Of a DNA stretch of 28,464 bases, positions 8,076 to 19,668 are shown one piece after another. The translations under genes were made by a program, and so were the position numbers. Source of the stretch: a virus; IMG/VR virus record IMGVR_UViG_3300030060_008185, positions 1 to 28,464 of that record, one strand, 5' to 3'. The notes under the pieces were generated by a model. It worked only from the letters and a program-made list of their open reading frames with translations. It did no database searches and was not told the DNA's origin. Every line of letters begins with the position of its first letter. Position 1 is the first letter of the stretch.

Positions 8076-8483
8076 ATGCAGACATTTTTACCATTGCCCT
8101 CAATGGGCGAATCTGTTCGTTGCTTGGACAACAAGCGACTGGGCAAACAACGAGTTGAGGCTTTACAAATATTGAAAGCTCTTAATGGTGAATACGACAA
8201 CACTGGTGCTTGGATCAATCATCCTGCTACAAAAATGTGGCGAGGATATGAAGGTGCTTTGACTTTTTATAAAGACCTTTGCATTGAAGAGTGGATTCGT
8301 CGTGGCTTCAAAAACACGATGGACTGGAAACAAGAGCATGCAGTAAAGATGCCACCATGGATCGGACGCAATGAAATACATGCGAGTCATCGATCTAATT
8401 TGTTGCGTAAAGAACCAGAATATTATTCACAATTTAATTGGGAGGAGCCAGACGACATGCCATATGTTTGGCCAGTGAAATGA
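8076..8483 (+). CDS. Pyrimidine-dimer glycosylase-like protein (MSMEG_6728 / T4 endonuclease V-like)
   Basis: This 135-aa protein begins MQTFLPLPSMGESVRCLDNK and continues RLGKQRVEALQILKAL, NHPATKMWRGYEGALTFYKD and a C-terminal HASHRSNLLRKEPEYY. This is the pattern of the MSMEG_6728 family, annotated as pyrimidine-dimer DNA glycosylase related to T4 endonuclease V. The predicted role is excision of UV-induced cyclobutane dimers from phage DNA, plausible for a sunlit-water phage. It is the first gene after the early promoter, with a GAGAAAGGA site 8 bases before its ATG. The Thr nucleophile position of T4 EndoV cannot be confirmed here because residue 2 is Gln and residue 3 Thr, so activity is inferred from family only. 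Confidence 0.75.
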   Translation: MQTFLPLPSMGESVRCLDNKRLGKQRVEALQILKALNGEYDNTGAWINHPATKMWRGYEGALTFYKDLCIEEWIRRGFKNTMDWKQEHAVKMPPWIGRNEIHASHRSNLLRKEPEYYSQFNWEEPDDMPYVWPVK

Positions 8484-10277: not shown

Positions 10278-11810
10278 GTGAATAAAAATACAAAAAGATT
10301 CATGGCTTTGTTCGATGGTTACGAAAAAGCACACGGACAATACAGAGTGACAAGTAAAGGTGATGATGGAAAGTTATCAGGACGTGCTATAACAAATTCA
10401 GAACCAGCATCAAAAGAAAATTATACTGAGCACTTAGAAGGTGGTCAATATATACTTGGCATCATCATGCTCAAAGAAAATAATACATGTTCTTTTGGTT
10501 GCATTGATATTGACATTCGTGGTGTGGTAAAACTTGAAGAGCCATTAGAAGAATTAGAAAAGAAAATAAGACATACGCCACTCGTTCTTTGCAGATCAAA
10601 AAGTGGTGGTGCACATTTATATTTATTTTGTGATCCTGCAATTCCTGCACCAGATATGGTAGCAAAGTTGAATGGATTCTCAGCACAACTTGGTTATGGT
10701 GGAGCTGAGATATTTCCCAAGCAGGTATCACGTGCTAATGAACAAGATCGTGGTAACTGGATAAATCTTGCATACCATGGTGGTGACAAATCAGAACGCT
10801 ATGCAATTCATGAAGGAAAAAAATTAGACCTCAAAGGTTTTTTAGATCTTGCTGAGAGTAAAAGAGTTAGGCAAGAGCAACTTGATAAATTTGAGCCAAA
10901 TTTAGTTGAACTTTTTAATGATGGTCCACCATGTCTTCAACACCTCTCAACGATGGGTTTTCCAGAGGGAACACGCAACGTCTCTCTTTTTAATATAGGT
11001 GTCTACTATCGCAAGAAAAATCCAGATGATTGGCAAGAAGAAGTCATGAAACACAACTACGAGCATTTTGATCCACCACTGTCAAGTGGTGAAGCTGGGG
11101 GTGTCATAAAAGGAGTTGCCAAAAAAGAATATGCCTATACTTGCAAGCAGTCACCAATATGTAATTACTGTGAAAAAACAAAATGTCTAAAACGAGCTTA
11201 CGGAGTTGGTGGTAATTTTAGTGGCAATGCAATAGAAATTGACTCGATAACGAAATATGAAACTGAGAACAGATCTTCTGTGCGTTGGTATGTTGAGATG
11301 CAAGGTGAACGTATCGAAGTTACGACAGACCAACTGCTTGAGCAAAGAAAACTTCAAAGACTTTGTGTTGAGAAATTAAATAAGTGTCCATCAATTATGC
11401 CTCAGCCACGTTGGGAAAGTCGCATCAATGAATTGCTAACTGTTGTTGAAGTTATTAATGATCCTGATGATGCATCTCCTCGTGGCCAGTTCGAGAAAGT
11501 TTTAGATTCGTTTTTAACTGGTAAGGTGCAAGCAAGGCATCGTGATGAAATAATGAACGCTAAGCCATGGCACGACCCAGAGGCAGAAAAAGTGTATTTC
11601 CGATCTGAAGATCTTTTCATATACTTAGAGGCTAGGCGATTTCGATTCCACTCCCAGCACCAGATATGGTCTTGGTTAAGAGAGATTGGTGGTGATAGAG
11701 ATCAGTTTAGAATAAAAGGAAAAGCTATTAAAGTCTGGTCAGTTCCCGCACCAGAGTTTTACGAGGAGGAGCCACTAGGATTACCTCCAACAATAGAGGA
11801 GAACTTTTAA
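10278..11810 (+). CDS. Archaeo-eukaryotic primase-superfamily protein (TOTE-type primase domain)
   Basis: This is a 510-aa protein from the GTG at 10278, chosen because GGAGGG lies 7 bases upstream; the ATG at 10263 (515 aa) is an alternative but overlaps that site. AEP motifs: CIDIDIRG (two metal-binding Asp, about 77 and 79), SKSGGAHLYLF (His about 113, nucleotide binding) and GGAEIFPKQ (about 142-150), as in TOTE-system-like primases and primase-polymerases. A Cys cluster (CKQSPICNYCEKTKC) follows centrally and a winged-helix-like C-terminus (FRFHSQHQIWSWLREIGGD) ends the protein. Predicted role: primer synthesis for phage replication with the adjacent helicase. No fused helicase domain is present, so it may act with the UvrD-like or SNF2 proteins. 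Confidence 0.8.
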   Translation: MNKNTKRFMALFDGYEKAHGQYRVTSKGDDGKLSGRAITNSEPASKENYTEHLEGGQYILGIIMLKENNTCSFGCIDIDIRGVVKLEEPLEELEKKIRHTPLVLCRSKSGGAHLYLFCDPAIPAPDMVAKLNGFSAQLGYGGAEIFPKQVSRANEQDRGNWINLAYHGGDKSERYAIHEGKKLDLKGFLDLAESKRVRQEQLDKFEPNLVELFNDGPPCLQHLSTMGFPEGTRNVSLFNIGVYYRKKNPDDWQEEVMKHNYEHFDPPLSSGEAGGVIKGVAKKEYAYTCKQSPICNYCEKTKCLKRAYGVGGNFSGNAIEIDSITKYETENRSSVRWYVEMQGERIEVTTDQLLEQRKLQRLCVEKLNKCPSIMPQPRWESRINELLTVVEVINDPDDASPRGQFEKVLDSFLTGKVQARHRDEIMNAKPWHDPEAEKVYFRSEDLFIYLEARRFRFHSQHQIWSWLREIGGDRDQFRIKGKAIKVWSVPAPEFYEEEPLGLPPTIEENF

Positions 11811-11811
11811 T

Positions 11812-12024
11812 ATGACATCGCCAGAAGAATATATGAAAAAAGAAGACAGAGAGAAGCAAGGCGAAAGATTTAAATCTATGACAGATAACAAAATAGAAAG
11901 TGTTCTGTCATCAGTTGAAAATGTTTTAGACAAAGGGTCATTTAATTTGTCGATGATTGACGATGTAAAATTTTTGAGAGATTGGGTAGCGAAGGTTAGA
12001 TATGGCAACACAATCTCGAGTTAA
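11812..12024 (+). CDS. 70-aa charged helical protein between primase and helicase
   Basis: The ATG follows the primase stop by one base. The protein is hydrophilic and helical (YMKKEDREKQGERFKSMTDN, then IESVLSSVENVLDKGSFNLS and VKFLRDWVAKV). Its 3' end overlaps the helicase start by 23 bases. No family is recognised. Position suggests a small replication accessory factor, such as a helicase loader or linker, but nothing in the sequence proves it. Confidence 0.7.
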   Translation: MTSPEEYMKKEDREKQGERFKSMTDNKIESVLSSVENVLDKGSFNLSMIDDVKFLRDWVAKVRYGNTISS

Positions 12025-13471
12025 TATAATACTTGGTCCTCCAGGAACTGGGAAGACAACAACACTCCTCAACATTGTTGATGAGGCAATTGAATCTGGA
12101 ACACCACCAGAACGGATTGCTTATTTAGCTTTTACTCGAAAAGCTGCATATGAAGCTCAAGAGCGAGCCATGGCAAGATTTAATATTGATGAAAGCAGAT
12201 TGCCATATTTTCGGACACTTCACTCACTTGCATTTCGCCAGCTTGGAATTCAACGTGATGAAGTTATGACTGAAAGCCATCTGAGAAAGTTAGGTAAGAC
12301 TCTCGGTGTTGAGTTTCGAGGAGTGTATGATGATGCTGTTCACATGCCAATTGGAGATGGACTTGGTGATAAATGTGCTCGAGTTGAGGCATTGAGTCGT
12401 GTAAGAATCTGTTCAGTTGAACAACAATATGAATTGTCAAATGAGCCAGACCTAACACTTCATGCATGCCAGCAATTTTCAAAAGTTATCAAAAGATACA
12501 AAACAGAAAATGGCTTGCTTGATTTTACAGATATGCTTGAAAGATATGATAAAGAATTAGATGTTGATATATGCATTTTTGATGAAGCTCAAGATTTATC
12601 AGCACTTCAATATAAAATGGCAATAAATCTTTCCAAATCAGCATCAAAAATTTATATTGCTGGTGATGATGATCAAGCAATATTTGGATGGGCAGGTGCT
12701 GACATAAGAAAATTTTTGTCACTTGAAGGCAATAGAATTGTTTTGCCTCAAAGTTATAGAACACCAACATCGATACACAATTTTTCACAGAACATCTGCT
12801 CTAGGATAAAAAATAGATATAATAAAGATTGGACACCAAGAGAAGAAATTGGTAATGTTGAATGGGTTTCACATGAAGAAGAATTAGATCTGTCAGGATC
12901 TGAGTCTTGGATGCTTTTGTCAAGATCTAAATTTTTCTTAACGAGGTTTAAGAAAATATGTCAGCAGCAAGGTTATGCATATAAGATGTTCGGAGCATCA
13001 TCAACTAATACCAGTGAAACTCGTGCAATAATATCTTGGGAGAATCTGCGAAAAAATAAAACTATTTCTGTTTCTGAGGCAAAAAATTTAATTCAATTTA
13101 TTCCAATAAAAATTAAGTTGCCTGTCTTACAAAGCTACACGCTGAAAGATTTCGGATTTAGCAGTGATGCAAAACAACATAATTGGATGACTATGTTGAG
13201 AAACATAGCACCAGACGAAAGAGAATATCTTAGAGCATGTTTGCACAATGGTGAAAAATTTGGTGATGAGCCTCGCATAACAATCAGCACAATTCATCAA
13301 GTTAAAGGTGGTGAAGCTGACAATGTTGCACTGGTTACTGACATGGGTGGATTGTCATGGAAGGCAAGCACCACAGATGAGGAGATAAGAGTTTGGTATG
13401 TGGCAGCAACACGTGCTCGGAAAAACCTGTTTTTGGTTCGACCAAGGACATTAAAATTTTTTGACCTGTGA
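12002..13471 (+). CDS. Superfamily 1 (UvrD/Rep-like) DNA helicase
   Basis: The 489 aa show all main SF1A motifs: Walker A GPPGTGKTTT (12-21), Ia YLAFTRKAA (41-49), II FDEAQDLS (193-200), III IAGDDDQAIFGWAGA (219-233), IV LPQSYRTP (248-255), V ISTIHQVKGGEADNVAL and VI WYVAATRARKNLFLV near the C-terminus. The length is shorter than UvrD/Rep (about 670-720 aa), with reduced 1B/2B regions, as in phage Dda/UvrD-like enzymes. Predicted role: 3'-5' (or Dda-like) unwinding at phage forks, ATP-driven. AAGG six bases upstream of the ATG serves as ribosome site. Direct linkage to the AEP primase suggests a primase-helicase pair encoded as two proteins. Confidence 0.93.
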   Translation: MATQSRVNIILGPPGTGKTTTLLNIVDEAIESGTPPERIAYLAFTRKAAYEAQERAMARFNIDESRLPYFRTLHSLAFRQLGIQRDEVMTESHLRKLGKTLGVEFRGVYDDAVHMPIGDGLGDKCARVEALSRVRICSVEQQYELSNEPDLTLHACQQFSKVIKRYKTENGLLDFTDMLERYDKELDVDICIFDEAQDLSALQYKMAINLSKSASKIYIAGDDDQAIFGWAGADIRKFLSLEGNRIVLPQSYRTPTSIHNFSQNICSRIKNRYNKDWTPREEIGNVEWVSHEEELDLSGSESWMLLSRSKFFLTRFKKICQQQGYAYKMFGASSTNTSETRAIISWENLRKNKTISVSEAKNLIQFIPIKIKLPVLQSYTLKDFGFSSDAKQHNWMTMLRNIAPDEREYLRACLHNGEKFGDEPRITISTIHQVKGGEADNVALVTDMGGLSWKASTTDEEIRVWYVAATRARKNLFLVRPRTLKFFDL

Positions 13472-13479
13472 TTAAGTTA

Positions 13480-13511
13480 TTGATTTATAAAGAAAAGAAA
13501 ATACTTTACTT
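13480..13511 (+). promoter_or_regulatory. Repeated promoter-like element, copy A
   Basis: TTGATT (13480-13485), 17 bases, ACTTTA, within a shared core AAAGAAAATACTTTACTT. It begins 9 bases after the helicase stop and is followed about 35 bases later by the shared leader CTGAGAAAGGA before the zinc-finger gene. The same arrangement occurs at 22637 and 23890. It is probably a promoter with a nonstandard -10; an RNA leader or regulator site is possible. Confidence 0.6.
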
Positions 13512-13562
13512 TTTATTAGTAATCGGCAATAATGTCTTCGTTAACTGAGAAAGGAAAGTGAA

Positions 13563-13826
13563 ATGGTAAAATTTAAGATTCATGTTCATTGTGCTGATTG
13601 TGCTGGTTATGGTGTTGTGTCTGATGGCCACCCTAATGATCCCAGTTCTAGAAATGTTCTTTGTAAAGAATGTGATGGCACAGGAAAAGATTCTTTTATT
13701 GATGAAATGGAGTATGACTCTATTACAGATGTTATACAAGATTATCCAAAGGCCATTGGCTTTACATATGTTGACTCTAACCCGCAACTTAAAAATTATA
13801 CATACATTAGAAAGGAAACAAAATGA
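13563..13826 (+). CDS. 87-aa DnaJ-type zinc-finger protein
   Basis: Two CxxCxGxG motifs are visible, CADCAGYG near residues 11-18 and CKECDGTG near 38-45, as in the cysteine-rich domain of DnaJ, where four Cys hold one zinc. There is no J-domain. The rest is short and acidic (DEMEYDSITDVIQDYPKAIG). CTGAGAAAGGA lies upstream and the stop overlaps the next ATG by four bases. Some marine phages carry a partial DnaJ domain fused to their DNA polymerase; here it is a separate gene beside replication genes. The role could be protein-protein or DNA contact in the replisome (inference). Confidence 0.75.
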   Translation: MVKFKIHVHCADCAGYGVVSDGHPNDPSSRNVLCKECDGTGKDSFIDEMEYDSITDVIQDYPKAIGFTYVDSNPQLKNYTYIRKETK

Positions 13827-14389
13827 CTACAGTATATGGATTATATCACACTGGCAAAGAAGCACCTAAGATTGAAGTTTTTGCATCAGCTGAAATTGCT
13901 AGAAGTTCTGGAAATGGATTCAGCATCGTTGAAAAGCAAAGTTGCTTGAATGATGTTAGGATATTTCCAACCAGCTTACTTATTGATATTTACAATATCA
14001 ATGCAGAGCGTAAAGTTTCTAGATTTAGAGACCGAGCAACTGCAGAAAGTCGGGTGTGGAAAATGCTAACTGAGCAAGAAGCTCCTCAGGAGCAAACTCC
14101 TCAGGAGCAAACAGAAGCACCTAAAGAGGTTTCTAAGAAACCAAAAAAATTACACAATGGAGGTTACAATAATTCTAAAAGATTTGCGAATCGTAGAATT
14201 ATTTCCAAAGTTACTTCTAATCCTCGAACAAAGAAAACTGGTTATGGATACAATTCAATGGAAATTGTTATCAATGCCGGAGAGTCTGGAATCTTATACG
14301 AAGAGTATATCAGACTTGGAGGAAGAGATGTTGATCTTCGTTGGGATCTTGATAGAGAAAATGTTTTTGTTACACCATCTGAAAAATAA
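13823..14389 (+). CDS. 188-aa protein with Pro/Gln linker and winged-helix-like C-terminus
   Basis: The N-terminal region (about 1-75) ends in IYNINAERKVSRFRDRATAE and SRVWKML, resembling a short domain I recall in phage and bacterial proteins before a linker. The middle (about 84-105) is low-complexity, EAPQEQTPQEQTEAPKEV, partly encoded by a perfect 15-bp tandem repeat. The C-terminal 70 residues (SNPRTKKTGYGYNSMEIVIN, then YEEYIRLGGRDVDLRWDLDR) look like a small DNA-binding winged helix. A regulator or replication accessory protein is possible. AGAAAGGA precedes the start. Function unknown. Confidence 0.7.
   Translation: MTTVYGLYHTGKEAPKIEVFASAEIARSSGNGFSIVEKQSCLNDVRIFPTSLLIDIYNINAERKVSRFRDRATAESRVWKMLTEQEAPQEQTPQEQTEAPKEVSKKPKKLHNGGYNNSKRFANRRIISKVTSNPRTKKTGYGYNSMEIVINAGESGILYEEYIRLGGRDVDLRWDLDRENVFVTPSEK
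14082..14111 (+). repeat. Perfect 15-bp tandem duplication in a coding linker
   Basis: CTCCTCAGGAGCAAA occurs twice in tandem (14082-14096 and 14097-14111), encoding the A-P-Q-E-Q / T-P-Q-E-Q linker repeat. In-frame slippage of a linker is the simple explanation; each unit also contains the CTCCT/AGGAG inverted repeat. Confidence 0.85.
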
Positions 14390-14394
14390 TATTA

Positions 14395-14420
14395 ATGGAG
14401 GGGAACATGTTCCCCTCCAT
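14395..14420. promoter_or_regulatory. Perfect 26-bp palindrome upstream of the ThyX-like gene
   Basis: ATGGAGGGGAACA followed at once by its reverse complement (13 + 13 bases). As RNA it makes an 11-bp stem with a CATG loop that buries a GGAGGGG sequence. It lies 5 bases after the 188-aa gene and 20 bases before the ThyX-like ATG. There is no clear T-run on the plus strand, but T-rich sequence follows on the minus strand. Candidate operator, RNA processing site or weak terminator. Confidence 0.65.
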
Positions 14421-14440
14421 ATATTTAAAGGTAAAATATT

Positions 14441-15526
14441 ATGAGATTAGAAATAATATCAGAGGACACTGAACATCAAGGTGCAAGAAAGACTCATTTA
14501 TCTAGACATTGCTGGGAACTTTCTAGATCACCTGATGATACGACACCACTCGAAACAATTTTATCAATTGATGCACCAGTGAATGAAATTCCATCTTTCG
14601 TTATTGGGGTTGAGTGCACAATTCTTGAAAGAGAAATTTTTGCATCTTTCCGAGACCATGTGATGTGGGCAAGAACATCAAGAGTTGATGCCCCATCACA
14701 ATTTCAAGCTCCTGAGTTTTTTGAAAACCAGTATAAACATCACTTGGCAGCAATAAGAGATAGAATCTTTTTTGAGATTTCAAAAGGTGTTATTCAAGAT
14801 GAGTACCGAATGTTAATTCCACTTTGTTCTTTAACATCATTTAGCACAAGATTGTCTTGGCGAGGTTTGATTAAGTTATATAAAATGTATGAACATCTTG
14901 CCGAGATAGATGGATATTTTAATATTGGTCTTAATGCTCTTGAAGAAAAATTTAAATTATCAAAATTTGCAAAGAATTATAGCTTCGCAGATGTTTTGCC
15001 TTCTTTAGAAAAAGAAAATTGTATCTCTGAGAGAAGTGGTCCAATGGTAACAATATTTCAAGAAATGCCAATTGGCTTGAGAGCACAAGTTGTTCGTCAC
15101 AGGAATTTTACAATACACGACAATTTAAAAGATATAATTAATCAGGAAGATTTTTGGATCAAAACAATTGGAGACCCAATGCTTGTTTCTATTTCTGCTT
15201 CAGCTGAATTTTGGAAAACTGTCGTAAACAAAAGGCAGTGCTGGATAGCTCAATATGGAATATGGTCTGAGATAATACAAGAAGCTCAAATGTTTCTTGA
15301 TATTGATGAGAATGATTTACCATGTTCTGATGGCTTTTGTCCATACACAAGGGATGCTGAAATAAGGCATACCGATGACGATCCTGGAGCACCTTGTCCA
15401 ATACATAGCAATTTAACAAATACACCAGTTCAAGAAAAATATCTTAACTCGATAGAAATCGAAGCAAGCTATCGACCAAACTTTTGGAAAAAACACATAG
15501 AAAAAATGGAGGTTACTAATGCTTAA
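14441..15526 (+). CDS. thyX: Divergent ThyX-like (flavin-dependent thymidylate synthase family) protein, possibly internally duplicated
   Basis: 361 aa, longer than the usual 220-250 aa of ThyX. The second half has LRAQVVRHRNFTIHDNLKDI (RHR at 219-221), resembling the ThyX signature RHRxxSxNxxSxR with the later Ser/Asn/Arg positions altered. It continues with FWKTVVNKRQCWIAQYGIWS, like the C-terminal AQxEIR helix. The first half has a similar order: VECTILEREIFASFRDHVMW then LTSFSTRLSWRGLIKLYKMY. A Cys-containing tail (CSDGFCPYTRD...CPIHSN) follows. ThyX converts dUMP to dTMP with FAD and methylene-tetrahydrofolate. The neighbours downstream, a deoxyribosyltransferase and a nucleotidase, fit nucleotide metabolism. 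Active or degenerate status cannot be told from sequence alone. Confidence 0.6.
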   Translation: MRLEIISEDTEHQGARKTHLSRHCWELSRSPDDTTPLETILSIDAPVNEIPSFVIGVECTILEREIFASFRDHVMWARTSRVDAPSQFQAPEFFENQYKHHLAAIRDRIFFEISKGVIQDEYRMLIPLCSLTSFSTRLSWRGLIKLYKMYEHLAEIDGYFNIGLNALEEKFKLSKFAKNYSFADVLPSLEKENCISERSGPMVTIFQEMPIGLRAQVVRHRNFTIHDNLKDIINQEDFWIKTIGDPMLVSISASAEFWKTVVNKRQCWIAQYGIWSEIIQEAQMFLDIDENDLPCSDGFCPYTRDAEIRHTDDDPGAPCPIHSNLTNTPVQEKYLNSIEIEASYRPNFWKKHIEKMEVTNA

Positions 15527-16076
15527 AATTTATCTTGCAGGACCATTCTTTAACGAAAAACAGATTGATCTTATAGAGAGAATCGAATCTGAGTTTGATA
15601 AATATGGATTCGATTATTTTTCTCCAAGAAAAGGTGGTGGTGTTTTATCACATTTATCACCAGAGGAGAGAACTAAAGAATCGAAAAGGATATACGAAAG
15701 CAATGTCCGAGAGATGATTAATGCGAATGTTCTTTTTGCAATAATTGATGGAAGAGACACAGGAACTGTCTATGAGATGGGATATTTCAAAGCTCTTACA
15801 GATCATTTTAAATATAAAAGTGGTCGCTCCGAAAAAGATTTACAGAGATATTCAGTAACCTGTACAGACGAAAATTTTGGTTTGAATATAATGATAAAAG
15901 AATCTGTTGATGCTCACATTGTTGGCAACAAAGATTTACAAAATTTCTGTGGAATACTTGCTGGTAATTGGGACGCCCCAGTTGGAAAAGAGAATGATCC
16001 AAAGTGGCAAAACAATTATGAAAGAAGAGAAAAAATATTGAGTCAGTTTCAAAACTTTAACCCAGATGTTATCTGA
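15519..16076 (+). CDS. Nucleoside 2-deoxyribosyltransferase family protein
   Basis: The 185 aa open with KIYLAGPFFNEKQIDLIERI, the start typical of the family, followed by YFSPRKGGG and NVLFAIIDGRDTGTVYEMGY, where D77/D80 and E86 match the catalytic Asp/Glu region (DGxDxGTxxExG). The reaction is transfer of deoxyribose between bases, or hydrolysis of deoxynucleoside monophosphates in related DNPH-type enzymes. GGAGG lies 6 bases before the ATG, and the gene overlaps the ThyX-like gene by 8 bases. It most likely takes part in salvage of host nucleosides for phage DNA; substrate preference is unknown. Confidence 0.85.
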   Translation: MLKIYLAGPFFNEKQIDLIERIESEFDKYGFDYFSPRKGGGVLSHLSPEERTKESKRIYESNVREMINANVLFAIIDGRDTGTVYEMGYFKALTDHFKYKSGRSEKDLQRYSVTCTDENFGLNIMIKESVDAHIVGNKDLQNFCGILAGNWDAPVGKENDPKWQNNYERREKILSQFQNFNPDVI

Positions 16077-16750
16077 TGAATGTTGTAAAAATATTTAGTA
16101 TATCTCAGAGCATGTCGTCTATCAATAGATATTCGCAGATAAATCTTTTGCACCCAGAGTCAGTTCTTGAGCACACAGGATTTGTTTGCCTATTTACTTA
16201 TTTAACATGTTCTGAGATAAATTTCTCTTGTGAGAAAAAAATAAATACTGGTTTGGCTTTGATGAAAGCAGTGTTTCATGATGTTGATGAAGTTGTAACT
16301 GGGGACATACCTAGGCCAACGAAATATTTTAGTGAGGAGTCAAAAAATATATTTGACAAAATTGCATCACAAGGAATAAATCAAATAATATCTGAACTTG
16401 GTATTAAAAGTAGTGAAAGTTCTCAAGAGATAGAAAATCTTTGGAGAGAATCAAAGAATGATGAAGAAGGTCGGATTGTTGCTCTCTCAGATCTTGCAGC
16501 TGTAGTATACAAAATTTGGGAGGAAGTTATTCTACTTGGAAACAAAAAACTCGTCCTTCAAGGTAAGCAGGTTTTTGGCTATATAGAGGATTTTGCAAGT
16601 TCTCTTGATAGCCAAGAAATAAACGAACAACATAGAACTGTTATTGAAGATGTTATCTGCCAGCTTTTGAATATTTCTTCCAAAATAAAAGATATGGAAG
16701 ATCCAATGATTGGAACTTTAGCATCTCTTAACAATCCAGAAAAAAATTAG
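16076..16750 (+). CDS. HD-domain 5'-deoxynucleotidase, YfbR-like
   Basis: The 224 aa have the HD-superfamily metal ligands H33 (HPESVLEHTGFV), H68-D69 (MKAVFHDVDEVVTGDIPRPT) and a later Asp in IVALSDLAAVVYKIWEEV. The motif HDVDEVVTGDIPRPTKYF is very close to that of YfbR, which hydrolyses dNMPs to deoxynucleosides. YfbR is about 200 aa, so the length fits. The ATG overlaps the preceding stop by one base. With the deoxyribosyltransferase it forms a coherent deoxynucleotide cassette. A DatZ-type dATPase is a related possibility, but no PurZ-like gene is in the window to support it. Confidence 0.85.
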   Translation: MNVVKIFSISQSMSSINRYSQINLLHPESVLEHTGFVCLFTYLTCSEINFSCEKKINTGLALMKAVFHDVDEVVTGDIPRPTKYFSEESKNIFDKIASQGINQIISELGIKSSESSQEIENLWRESKNDEEGRIVALSDLAAVVYKIWEEVILLGNKKLVLQGKQVFGYIEDFASSLDSQEINEQHRTVIEDVICQLLNISSKIKDMEDPMIGTLASLNNPEKN

Positions 16751-17195: not shown

Positions 17196-17346
17196 GAATA
17201 TAATAATTTTGTTTATGGCTTTTTGCATATTTGTTTTAGCAAATAAGAGTGTTGATGAGACAGTGGAAGAAGCATTCACCAGAGTTGGAAAAAACATGTA
17301 CACAACAACAATGAACATCGTTAAAGGAAGCATAGATAATGGTTGA
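17188..17346 (+). CDS. 52-aa exported or membrane-anchored small protein
   Basis: Translation from the ATG at 17188 gives MIKNIIILFMAFCIFVLANK, a short basic start and hydrophobic helix like a signal peptide, followed by a polar 32-residue remainder (SVDETVEEAFTRVGKNMYTT...). It overlaps the lipoprotein stop by 8 bases (ATGATTAA) and the phosphatase start by 8 bases (ATGGTTGA), so it fills the space exactly. Such a fit strongly supports translation. It may work with the lipoprotein at the envelope; no family is recognised. Confidence 0.7.
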   Translation: MIKNIIILFMAFCIFVLANKSVDETVEEAFTRVGKNMYTTTMNIVKGSIDNG

Positions 17347-17773
17347 GAGAATAATACTATGTGACCTTGATGGGACACTCTGCAACTGTGAGCACAGATT
17401 AAATTTCGCAGAACAAAAGAATTGGGATGCATTCAATGAGCGTTGTACAAACGATACAGTTAACTATGATATTGCTAACATTATTAGCAATTTAAGATCT
17501 GAAGAAACTCATATTTATCTTGTTTCTGGTCGAGATACTCGTTACAAAACGCACACAGTAGAATGGCTGAGGCTTAATGATATTTATTATGATCGTTTGA
17601 TTATGAGAGAGAGTAGCGACCATCGTCCAGATCATGTTGTCAAAGAGTCATTTTTAGATAGCTTAATCGATAAGAAAAAAGTTTGGTTTGTTTTGGATGA
17701 TAGAAAATCAGTTGTTGAAATGTGGCGAAAAAATGGACTACGTTGTTTACAAGTTCAGGAAGGAGATTTTTAA
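17339..17773 (+). CDS. HAD-superfamily phosphatase, PNKP 3'-phosphatase-like
   Basis: The 144 aa show HAD motif I ILCDLDGTL (D9 nucleophile, D11), motif II IYLVSGRDTRYK (S63) and motif IV VWFVLDDRKSVVEMWR (D120/D121), ending CLQVQEGDF. The latter stretch is characteristic of the phosphatase domain of T4 polynucleotide kinase (PseT) and related phage proteins. There is no kinase P-loop, so only the phosphatase half is present. Possible roles: removal of 3'-phosphates from nicked DNA or RNA, or nucleotide dephosphorylation in step with the cassette upstream. Confidence 0.8.
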   Translation: MVERIILCDLDGTLCNCEHRLNFAEQKNWDAFNERCTNDTVNYDIANIISNLRSEETHIYLVSGRDTRYKTHTVEWLRLNDIYYDRLIMRESSDHRPDHVVKESFLDSLIDKKKVWFVLDDRKSVVEMWRKNGLRCLQVQEGDF

Positions 17774-17930: not shown

Positions 17931-18180
17931 AATACGTTTAATTGGAAATGACATTGAAATTGATAATCAAAAAGTTGCCAGAGTTTTAGACATCTCAGCA
18001 AGTATGATGGATGATCTTCGTTCTTTTATACATAAAGCGAACAACTATGATAATATAGATGATAAGGTTGAAGATCTACAAAAACAAATTACTGAGGTAG
18101 AAAAAAATTCACAATCAGCATACTCCGAAGGAAAAATAGATGGGTATGCGGAAGGAAGAGAACATGGCACATCCGACTGA
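17923..18180 (+). CDS. 85-aa acidic helical protein of unknown function
   Basis: The start at the ATG at 17923 has an AAAGGAAAGAAG ribosome site and overlaps the preceding stop by 8 bases (ATGATTGA). The protein begins MIEIRLIGNDIEIDNQKVAR, then VLDISASMMDDLRSFIHKAN and a coiled-coil-prone C-terminus (VEDLQKQITEVEKNSQSAYS). There is no enzyme motif or membrane segment. It belongs to a run of small accessory genes between the phosphatase and the exonuclease. Confidence 0.7.
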   Translation: MIEIRLIGNDIEIDNQKVARVLDISASMMDDLRSFIHKANNYDNIDDKVEDLQKQITEVEKNSQSAYSEGKIDGYAEGREHGTSD

Positions 18181-18451
18181 GCACATAGCAGCAGCATTTG
18201 AAACATTTAAACAAAGAAGCGAGGTTTATGGTGATAATTATTTAACTCATGGAAAAGTTATGATGGCACTTTTTCCTAATGGTGTGGATCTTAAAACTGA
18301 GAATGAATATAATAGATTTGGAATTATTAACATGATGGTTGCAAAGCTAACAAGATATTGTCAAGGCTGGCCAAATGCACACCAAGACTCGATCCATGAT
18401 TTAGGTGTATATTCTTTTATTCTTGAAAGTTTAGATGATGATAGTGTTTGA
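18164..18451 (+). CDS. 95-aa DUF6378/MazG-like all-helical protein
   Basis: The start chosen is the ATG at 18164, after GGAAGAG. The sequence FKQRSEVYGDNYLTHGKVMM, NRFGIINMMVAKLTRYCQGW and HQDSIHDLGVYSFIL fits a family of phage proteins with a YGDxxxxH...KLxR...H.DSIxDLxxY pattern (DUF6378-like), thought to be related to all-alpha NTP pyrophosphatases. Catalytic ability is uncertain. Its position beside nucleotide and replication genes fits a house-cleaning or dNTP-sensing role. It overlaps the 85-aa gene by 17 bases and the exonuclease by 17. Confidence 0.7.
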   Translation: MAHPTEHIAAAFETFKQRSEVYGDNYLTHGKVMMALFPNGVDLKTENEYNRFGIINMMVAKLTRYCQGWPNAHQDSIHDLGVYSFILESLDDDSV

Positions 18452-18977
18452 TCTTGAAACAACAGGCTTGCCGATGGCTGAGGGTGCAGATCTTAATCTT
18501 CAGCCTAGAATAACTGAGTTCGGAGCAGTTAAGCTAGATGAGGAGCTTAATGAAATTGGCATATTAGAATTTATGTGTAATCCAGGAATACCACTCGATC
18601 CAAAAATAACAAAAATAACTGGGATAACGGATGAAGATCTTTCAAGCAAAAAACCATTCGTTTCGATGCTTGATGAGGTTTGTGAATTTTTTTTAGGCGA
18701 GCGAACTTTGGTTGCACATAACTTGCCATTTGACAGAACTGTGCTCAAGTTTGAGCTTGAAAGATTGGGCAAGGTGACGAGCTTTCCTTGGCCACCAGAG
18801 CAAATTTGTACTGTTGAAGTTGGCGAAACGATATGGAATAAAAAACGTAAACTTAGTGATATTTATCTTGAGGTTACAGATAAAGAGCACAAAGGTGCTC
18901 ACCGATCAATCGCAGACGTTCGTGCTCTGATAGAAATTGTTAAGTGGTATAACAAGGAGGGGCATTTAAATGGCTAA
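18435..18977 (+). CDS. DnaQ-like 3'-5' exonuclease
   Basis: The 180 aa show DEDDh motifs: Exo I FDLETTG (D6, E8), Exo II VAHNLPFDRTVL (D100), Exo III HRSIADVRA (H156, D161). The size and a lone exonuclease domain match proofreading epsilon-type subunits. The phage DnaE-type polymerase encoded 850 bases downstream lacks its own exonuclease, so this is its probable proofreader. Two adjacent ATGs (18435, 18438) could serve as start; the gene overlaps the upstream gene by 17 bases and the methyltransferase by 8. Confidence 0.92.
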   Translation: MMIVFDLETTGLPMAEGADLNLQPRITEFGAVKLDEELNEIGILEFMCNPGIPLDPKITKITGITDEDLSSKKPFVSMLDEVCEFFLGERTLVAHNLPFDRTVLKFELERLGKVTSFPWPPEQICTVEVGETIWNKKRKLSDIYLEVTDKEHKGAHRSIADVRALIEIVKWYNKEGHLNG

Positions 18978-19668
18978 CTGGCGACAAAAGGTTGTTGATT
19001 GGAACCATGAAAATGCTGATTGGGATGGTGAAGAGCAACTTCAAAAATCAATAAAAGACGCTCAATCAAATATACATTATCTTAAACTTTATGGCACAGG
19101 TGGTTGCATTTTAGATATAGGATCAAATATAGGAGAGTTCGCGATCGAAGCATCACATCTTTTTGATAAAGTTTTCTGTTATGAAGCACATCCGATGTCT
19201 TATAAAATCTCTTTGTCTAGATCTTCAAAGTTTAAAAATATAATGATTGAAAATAAAGCTGTTTGGAAAAGCAATGGGGAACAACTTTTCGTTTCGACAC
19301 CTGAAAATTCAACAGGTGCAACAGCTAGGGAAAAGAAATTTTACCCAAGTCGAAAAGAAGGATATTACAAAATAGTTGATTCTGTTTTATTTGATGAATT
19401 GATGATGACTAAAAATCCAAGAGTAATTAAAATTGATATTGAGGGTTGTGAATATGAAATATTGCCAAATGCTGAATTTAATGATTCTCTTGAATTTATT
19501 TCTGTTGAGTTCCATCAGCCTTTTGTTTCACCATCAAGAATTAAAAAATTTAATCAATGTTTGGAGAATTTAAAAAATAATGGATTTTCAATTATCAACG
19601 ATGTTAATTTAAAACCAAGAAAATTACTCTATTTCATAATAATTTTTCAAAGAAAGAAGAACACATGA
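18970..19668 (+). CDS. FkbM-family SAM-dependent methyltransferase
   Basis: The 232 aa contain the SAM-binding motif I CILDIGSNIGEFAIEASHLF (about 41-60), VFCYEAHP with the ribose-binding Glu, and the FkbM hallmark PRVIKIDIEGCEYEILPNAE (about 150-169), followed by FISVEFHQP. FkbM proteins O-methylate sugars or other small molecules; in phages they are found occasionally. Here it is placed between the exonuclease and polymerase genes rather than near structural genes, with GGAGG upstream. Substrate unknown: a surface glycan, a nucleotide sugar or a modified base are all conceivable. Confidence 0.85.
   Translation: MANWRQKVVDWNHENADWDGEEQLQKSIKDAQSNIHYLKLYGTGGCILDIGSNIGEFAIEASHLFDKVFCYEAHPMSYKISLSRSSKFKNIMIENKAVWKSNGEQLFVSTPENSTGATAREKKFYPSRKEGYYKIVDSVLFDELMMTKNPRVIKIDIEGCEYEILPNAEFNDSLEFISVEFHQPFVSPSRIKKFNQCLENLKNNGFSIINDVNLKPRKLLYFIIIFQRKKNT

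Follow-up and report, generated by a model that had tools for sequence, protein, structure and literature searches.

The roles of the active-site residues of ThyX, the flavin-dependent thymidylate synthase, are established for the TmThyX enzyme. In other phages, enzymes of the ThyA type have changed their substrate to dCMP, and T hypermodification usually starts from hmdU. The DNA of phage SP-15 has 5-(4,5-dihydroxypentyl)uracil in place of over half of its T; authors of the SP-15 genome guessed that gp130 is a hydroxymethyluridylate synthase, and their account does not mention an NDT (PMC5977210). In phage YerA41, T is underrepresented and hypermodified, and nucleosides of up to 1286 m/z share a 346 fragment that was read as T + 104 (PMC9023294). 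In modules of Z phages, a synthase is accompanied by an enzyme that eliminates the canonical nucleotide, either DatZ of the YfbR type or DmtZ of the NDT type (PMC8342488, PMC12884076).

Here we describe ThyX-L, a tandem ThyX-like protein of 361 aa recognized by its ORF, family, AlphaFold2 (AF2) model and fold matches. The gene (14441-15526, + strand) opens a run of three overlapping genes. They lie in the replication region of a fragment from a marine phage; this fragment, a 28,464-base virus record, was analysed here as a whole and is called the window. An NDT-family gene (15519-16076) and an HD-domain gene (16076-16750) complete the run. SP-15 gp130 is a member of the ThyX-L family, as is a YerA41 gene annotated 'hypothetical protein'. 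Among member phages, base chemistry is known for these two only, and neither result concerns the ThyX-L gene itself. In the open-licence literature, we found no publication tying this gene to NDT or DNA modification beyond the SP-15 guess.

Family and fold of ThyX-L

Profile searches place ThyX-L at the margin of ThyX. The window protein scored 12.1 bits (E = 0.16) with the Pfam Thy1 profile (PF02511), under the curated cut-off of 24.8, and the best family members reached 20-26 bits. There was no PHROG or NCBIfam match, and phmmer with the single sequence returned nothing from the PDB. Full-length conservation was seen in 36 IMG/VR loci, close relatives at 58-84% identity, and IMG/VR also contains further, more distant relatives. 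Homologues in isolate phages were detected by tblastn in phiXF1 (38% identity), YerA41 and GN1 (36%), SP-15 (22%) and Va2 (21%), and a second round through these first isolate members reached Carin-5, GXN1 and two Vibrio phages. Members diverge down to about 21% identity. When genome contigs of bacteria and archaea were scanned for the most conserved motifs, no relatives came up, either prophage or cellular, and the family appears to be viral only at the search sensitivity used. Viral contigs scanned with Va2 and YerA41 as queries yielded no matches. The terminases of the window and of Roseobacter phage CRP-901 share 72% identity; CRP-901 is without a ThyX-like gene.

An AF2 model of the full protein, built from 28 aligned members, had a pLDDT of 87.4 and a pTM of 0.83. 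Residues 1-183 of the model form a complete ThyX fold (Z 10-11, rmsd 3.2-3.5 A over about 173 residues). Repeat 1 (residues 1-188; 14441-15004, + strand), defined by VIA, Pfam and PDB profile matches and the conservation table, spans the whole TM0449 chain (residues 9-212) with Z of about 10.2-10.7, and the PBCV-1 type structure 4fzb gave Z 11.1. Because one domain can fill the match list of a full protein, residues 189-361 were modelled and searched separately. This model had a pLDDT of 91.5. Its best 50 Foldseek matches were all ThyX, as were the first 47 VIA entries (Z 5.2-6.5, mostly 100-107 residues, 2.7-3.6 A); the next, unrelated entry had Z 4.3 and later ones were lower. A single match with Z below 8 may be chance, but a list made up of one family, returned by a modelled half searched by itself, is hard to explain in that way. 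Repeat 2 (residues 189-285; 15005-15295, + strand), delimited by the separate AF2 model, the fold searches and the conservation table, is a shrunken ThyX fold. Missing from it is the middle third of ThyX, a long helical segment that separates the RHR helix from the C-terminal strand-helix pair.

The remainder of the chain is a C-terminal tail (residues 286-361; 15296-15523, + strand) recognized by conservation and by the motif D..R...DP.P.P, which also occurs in LIS04_124, a Listeria phage protein discussed below. D305, R309 and R345 of the tail are invariant, and C295, C300 and C319 are present in most members. Together with C267, these make up four cysteines (15239-15397) kept in 14-15 of 20 members and absent from most of the SP-15/Vibrio branch; a metal site in the tail is possible from this conservation. 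Fusion to other domains was also seen: one ThyX-like protein (L052, 9209-11113) has an N-terminal DUF559 endonuclease-like domain, and in YerA41 a separate DUF559 gene lies directly upstream of the ThyX-like gene.

Direct sequence self-alignment of the two halves detected no similarity (hhalign probability 0.2), so the claim of duplication rests on structure and a bridging homologue. Listeria phage LIS04 is a relative of SP-15 with a matching sugar-decoration cluster, the common genes being those for UDP-glucose dehydrogenase, uridylyltransferase, CDP-glycerol glycerophosphotransferase and glycosyltransferase. The slot after NDT in LIS04 is occupied by LIS04_124, a single-domain ThyX that is so annotated. 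The repeat-1 HMM matched residues 100-224 of this protein with 28.7 bits (best shuffle 6.6) and the repeat-2 HMM residues 210-306 with 37.7 bits (best shuffle 7.4). Both profile alignments meet on one LIS04_124 segment, SARSLLPILSKR, which aligns with NARSLMNFLNLR of TmThyX. Through this segment, R141 of repeat 1 corresponds to TmThyX R165 and R265 of repeat 2 to R174. On the models, ThyX-L holds as two ThyX-derived units fused in one chain. This bears out the two-copy ThyX proposed in an earlier, sequence-only reading of the window: both halves match ThyX by fold, LIS04_124 bridges them, and the bounds suggested for the repeats (50-155 and 205-285) fit both folded cores well. In the predicted structure, the ThyX fold is present and is not confined to one domain beside an unrelated half.

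Reciprocal retention of active-site residues by the two repeats

Residue conservation was counted over 20 divergent ThyX-L members, with equivalents numbered as in TmThyX. Repeat 1 retains R71 (R78), T/S79 (S88), R81 (R90), R/K123 (R147) and R141 (R165) in all 20, is without an equivalent of Q75, and at the R174 position has L, F, Y or I and never Arg. Repeat 2 supplies Q216 (Q75; 17/20), R219 (R78; 19/20), H220 (H79; 17/20) and R265 (R174; 20/20), retains an AQ motif (A270-Q271), and never has Arg at the R165 position in the same members. The repeats are therefore duplicates with reciprocal residue retention.

Both of the R-D/H-H/R elements noticed in the sequence-only reading proved real. 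The first is RDHVMWARTSR (residues 71-81; 14651-14683, + strand), in which R71, W76 and R81 are invariant (20/20). The second is QVVRHR (residues 216-221; 15086-15103, + strand), which aligns by profile to the RHR motif of ThyX 2cfa/4fzb. The aromatic helix described after each element is also found in the AF2 model, at residues 140-156 and 255-265. A third motif, KRQCWIAQYGIW (residues 264-275; 15230-15265, + strand), contains invariant R265 and W275 (20/20) and was aligned to TmThyX R174-HAQWEI through LIS04_124. The RHR-x7-S-x-R signature is consequently not found within one domain, as RHR lies in repeat 2 and (T/S)-x-R in repeat 1. Loss of the canonical Ser had been proposed, and this is correct only in part: T79-S80-R81 of repeat 1 sits at the S88-x-R90 position of ThyX, with R81 kept in 20/20.

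Since the two repeats keep different halves of the ThyX active-site set, conservation suggests that they form a single composite FAD/dUMP site and not a pair of damaged sites. The earlier expectation that one or both sites are altered was right in that residues are missing from each repeat, but the complementary sets point to a single shared site. FAD binding by ThyX-L is inferred. LIS04_124 carries both active-site residue sets in one domain, which supports duplication followed by complementary loss and makes this protein the likely unduplicated form. A degenerate repeat 2 was considered, with the protein acting as a regulator or inactive nucleotide-binding scaffold. Absence of the middle third of ThyX from repeat 2 favors such an interpretation, as does the lack of essential residues in each repeat taken singly. 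It is nonetheless highly improbable, as the charged residues of both repeats are invariant across members down to about 21% identity and the losses are complementary, not random.

Partner genes of ThyX-L

The NDT-family gene (Nuc_deoxyrib_tr, PF05014, E = 6.4e-16; 15519-16076, + strand) overlaps the ThyX-L stop, and its product scored 59 bits against a cut-off of 28.8. Y5, D80, E86 and N123 are invariant in 26/26 homologues. D80 and N123 are presumably equivalent to the nucleoside-transferase Asp/Asn of L. leichmannii NDT. In NDTs, Asp/Asn stabilise the 5'-OH, and DmtZ is without them (PMC12884076). The resemblance of D80 and N123 to these residues suggests that the window NDT may act on nucleosides and not, as DNPH1 and DmtZ do, on 5'-phosphates. 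The third gene (16076-16750, + strand), which overlaps the NDT stop, encodes an HD-domain protein of the YfbR-like 5'-deoxynucleotidase/DatZ-like phosphohydrolase type (Pfam YfbR-like, E = 2.4e-22; 79.9 bits against the PF12917 cut-off of 25.9). Among PDB entries it matched YfbR (E = 7e-10) with HDxxE kept, and DatZ (E = 4e-3). Its active-site motif HDVDEVVTGDIPRP aligns with HDASEVLTGDLPTP of YfbR.

Co-occurrence was counted in 16 phage records with ThyX-L, the window excluded. NDT scored above the PF05014 cut-off in 16/16, and YfbR HD above that of PF12917 in 15/16, usually adjacent, with Va2 as the exception. In the set of loci, NDT homologues were present in 67/69 and HD homologues in 63/69, mostly adjacent to ThyX-L. 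Gene order is ThyX-L/NDT/HD in the clade of the window and HD/ThyX-L/NDT elsewhere. Across 50,697 phage records searched by tblastn, which misses distant copies, co-occurrence with ThyX-L gave Fisher p values, computed with related phages treated as independent, of 5e-29 (NDT) and 8e-30 (HD). ThyX-L and NDT distances were correlated with a Mantel r of 0.85 (n = 20) that fell to 0.35 among the 10 most distant members; this weak correlation indicates that the two genes are not strictly co-inherited. PurA/PurZ homologues were found in 0/17 records, some of which may be fragments, with controls at 14/14; thus, HD and NDT are not serving 2-aminoadenine there. Canonical ThyX was present in 1/16 records (SP-15 only) and ThyA in 1/16 (Carin-5 only).

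YerA41 QSM00787.1 (L002, 15380-15916), annotated as a mannosyltransferase, is in fact of the NDT family (PF05014, E = 8e-14). The 'N-glycosidase' of phiXF1 was rejected as an NDT since it is of the NADAR family; the phiXF1 NDT directly follows ThyX-L. Other neighbors of the module recur less regularly. A PNKP-like HAD phosphatase (17339-17773, + strand; Pfam HAD_PNKP, E = 7e-35), whose homologue adjoins the module in loci L060, L061, L064 and L065, is possibly an accessory nucleotide phosphatase. A small DUF6378-type protein (18140-18451, + strand) is a recurrent neighbor of the module. It was rejected as a MazZ-like partner because it also occurs in CRP-901, which is without ThyX-L, and it probably lies outside the module. 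An FkbM-type methyltransferase (18970-19668, + strand; Pfam E = 9.7e-9), present among all loci only in the window and L039, is a candidate tailoring enzyme that might methylate a hydroxyl of the base side chain; its membership in the module is speculative. SDR reductases (5/16 records) and dUTPase (2/16) are not universal and were rejected as module members. Neither a glycosyltransferase nor an SDR is in view in the window, a fragment beyond which such genes may lie, and PADLOC gave no defence match.

Several further genes of these loci are of separate interest. A denV-like repair gene at window positions 8076-8483 (+ strand) encodes a pyrimidine-dimer DNA glycosylase (Pyr_excise, E = 5e-23) and has a homologue after the module in L071 (15651-16133). 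In L073, DNA polymerase III alpha is encoded by two overlapping ORFs (11668-12744 and 12741-14984), split inside the NTPase domain. A TPP-binding protein and a phosphoenolpyruvate mutase are encoded within 10 kb after the ThyX-like gene of Va2 (L004, 11869-21392); the two together could produce phosphonoacetaldehyde, which is likewise an aldehyde. About 6 kb of Geobacillus phage GR1 (L082/L083) hold genes for NDT, thioredoxin, a YfbR-type HD protein, a glycosyltransferase, a nitroreductase and a single-domain ThyX, in what looks like another thymine-modification locus.

Proposed function and relation to known systems

A virus-only family, two nucleotide-breaking partner genes and members in phages with decorated thymine together indicate that ThyX-L probably makes a modified-thymine precursor. 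The ThyX-L/HD/NDT set is composed like the modules of Z phages, with a pyrimidine synthase, which makes a C5-modified dUMP synthase combined with clearance of thymidine nucleotides the most economical interpretation. With a probability we put at roughly 60%, ThyX-L is a C5-modified dUMP synthase for T-modified DNA whose product replaces some or all dTMP. An ancestral phage ThyX was duplicated and fused, repeat 1 keeping the equivalents of the dUMP-phosphate-binding and central Arg residues and repeat 2 the RHR/Gln motif and the uracil-contacting Arg. With a geometry predicted from these residues, both repeats would jointly form the composite FAD/dUMP site, where reduced flavin, by homology with ThyX, would deliver a carbon donor to C5 of dUMP. 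The modified deoxyuridylate would then be phosphorylated and polymerised. Based on family and conserved catalytic residues, the HD protein is predicted to dephosphorylate thymidine nucleotides and the NDT to split the nucleoside into base and deoxyribose, actions that would lower the competing dTTP pool. In the larger phages, neighboring genes suggest a role for SDR reductases and glycosyltransferases in elaborating the side chain. The changed activity on another pyrimidine raised in the sequence-only reading would fit the company of ThyX-L, namely hypermodified-thymine phages, NDT and HD; the change is more likely to lie in the C5 product made from dUMP than in the starting pyrimidine. Because relatives of the window's phage were sequenced from metagenomes, this phage is unlikely to carry a decoration as large as the one that blocked ordinary sequencing of YerA41.

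The nature of the C5 product may be narrowed further. A one-carbon dUMP hydroxymethylase on a ThyX base, i.e., a 5-hmdUMP synthase, is a special case of a C5-modified dUMP synthase that we regard as possible, if tentative. It is the activity proposed for gp130 by the SP-15 genome authors (PMC5977210), and ThyX structures with formaldehyde or an N5-carbinolamine flavin exist (7ndw, 7ndz). Such an enzyme would accord with hmdU as the usual entry to T hypermodification. However, dihydroxypentyl-uracil has its five-carbon chain directly on C5 and is no obvious hydroxymethyl derivative, and a one-carbon route leaves the obligate NDT no role except clearance. Rather doubtful is a second proposal in which ThyX-L is a carbon-chain ligase: HD and NDT would turn dTMP into thymine and 2-deoxyribose (or its phosphate), and C1 of the sugar would be coupled to C5 of dUMP. 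Reduced flavin would activate the sugar aldehyde, the product would be trihydroxypentyl-dUMP, and SDR enzymes of some phages might reduce trihydroxypentyl to dihydroxypentyl, so that a single module would remove the competing nucleotide and use its sugar to make the substitute. Speculative as it is, deoxyribose as donor would explain both why NDT is near-obligate and why the SP-15 base has a five-carbon chain. The computed neutral mass of trihydroxypentyl-deoxyuridine, one oxygen above dihydroxypentyl-deoxyuridine, is 346.14 and agrees nominally with the 346 fragment of YerA41, an agreement that is ambiguous as to ion form and may be coincidence.

Two other proposals take ThyX-L away from modified dUMP altogether. 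It could be a divergent flavin-dependent thymidylate synthase that still makes dTMP, with HD and NDT serving general nucleotide salvage. The ThyX fold and RHR motif are present, most member phages are without another detectable thymidylate synthase, and MAP_020 of Ma-LMM01, another large two-part phage ThyX, is so annotated. This idea is weakened by the partners of ThyX-L and by the presence of ThyX-L alongside ThyX or ThyA in two phages, and we consider it unlikely. SP-15, which keeps much T, and Carin-5 carry ThyX-L in addition to ThyX and ThyA, respectively; both members with known DNA chemistry have hypermodified T; and near-obligate HD and NDT would destroy thymidine nucleotides, which is self-defeating for a module that makes dTMP. 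Activity on dCMP to give a 5-modified cytosine has a precedent in the switched ThyA-type enzymes of other phages, but it is the least probable proposal, as the chemistry of SP-15 and YerA41 concerns T and no cytosine-specific partner gene recurs beside the module in the records examined.

With a defined family, its conserved three-gene module and a prediction at the level of residues, both dihydroxypentyl-uracil synthesis and the base of the YerA41 decoration become testable. As a sequence marker, ThyX-L may also flag uncultured marine phages that have thymine-modified DNA. It is an example of an enzyme with its active-site residues divided between two fused copies while an undivided relative survives. 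If true, coupling of the sugar would add a new reaction that forms a carbon-carbon bond on a DNA nucleotide.

Compared with known systems, ThyX-L resembles ThyX (Thy1; TM0449, PBCV-1 2cfa/4fzb) in the fold of both repeats and in the RHR motif. The equivalents of R90, R147, R165 and R174 occur once each across its repeats and that of R78 in both. It differs in having two fused repeats, divided residues, a sequence below profile cut-off, an extra C-terminal tail and near-obligate NDT and HD neighbors. LIS04_124 is like ThyX-L in its slot beside NDT, its match to both repeat profiles and its tail motif, but has one ThyX domain bearing both residue sets. SP-15 gp130 is a full-length homologue with the two-repeat layout (24% over alignment A1) and an NDT gene nearby; unlike the window, SP-15 adds SDR, sugar genes and canonical ThyX, and gp130 is without the tail cysteines. 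MAP_020 of Microcystis phage Ma-LMM01 (491 aa; L084, 15717-17192) also appears from its sequence to consist of two halves resembling ThyX, between which the motifs are split: ERSTRY lies in half 1, and RHRSIWRY and LRSRVGGHINYR lie in half 2. As neither repeat profile gives significant similarity, it was rejected as a family member and is probably a separate case of two-half architecture; no gene annotated NDT or HD occurs in the 100 kb of Ma-LMM01 examined. Like the Z modules (PurZ with DatZ, MazZ or DmtZ), the ThyX-L module combines a nucleotide-modifying synthase with HD and/or NDT proteins that clear the canonical nucleotide. In contrast to those modules, it has no PurZ, its synthase is of the ThyX fold, and its NDT appears to keep the Asp/Asn that DmtZ is without.
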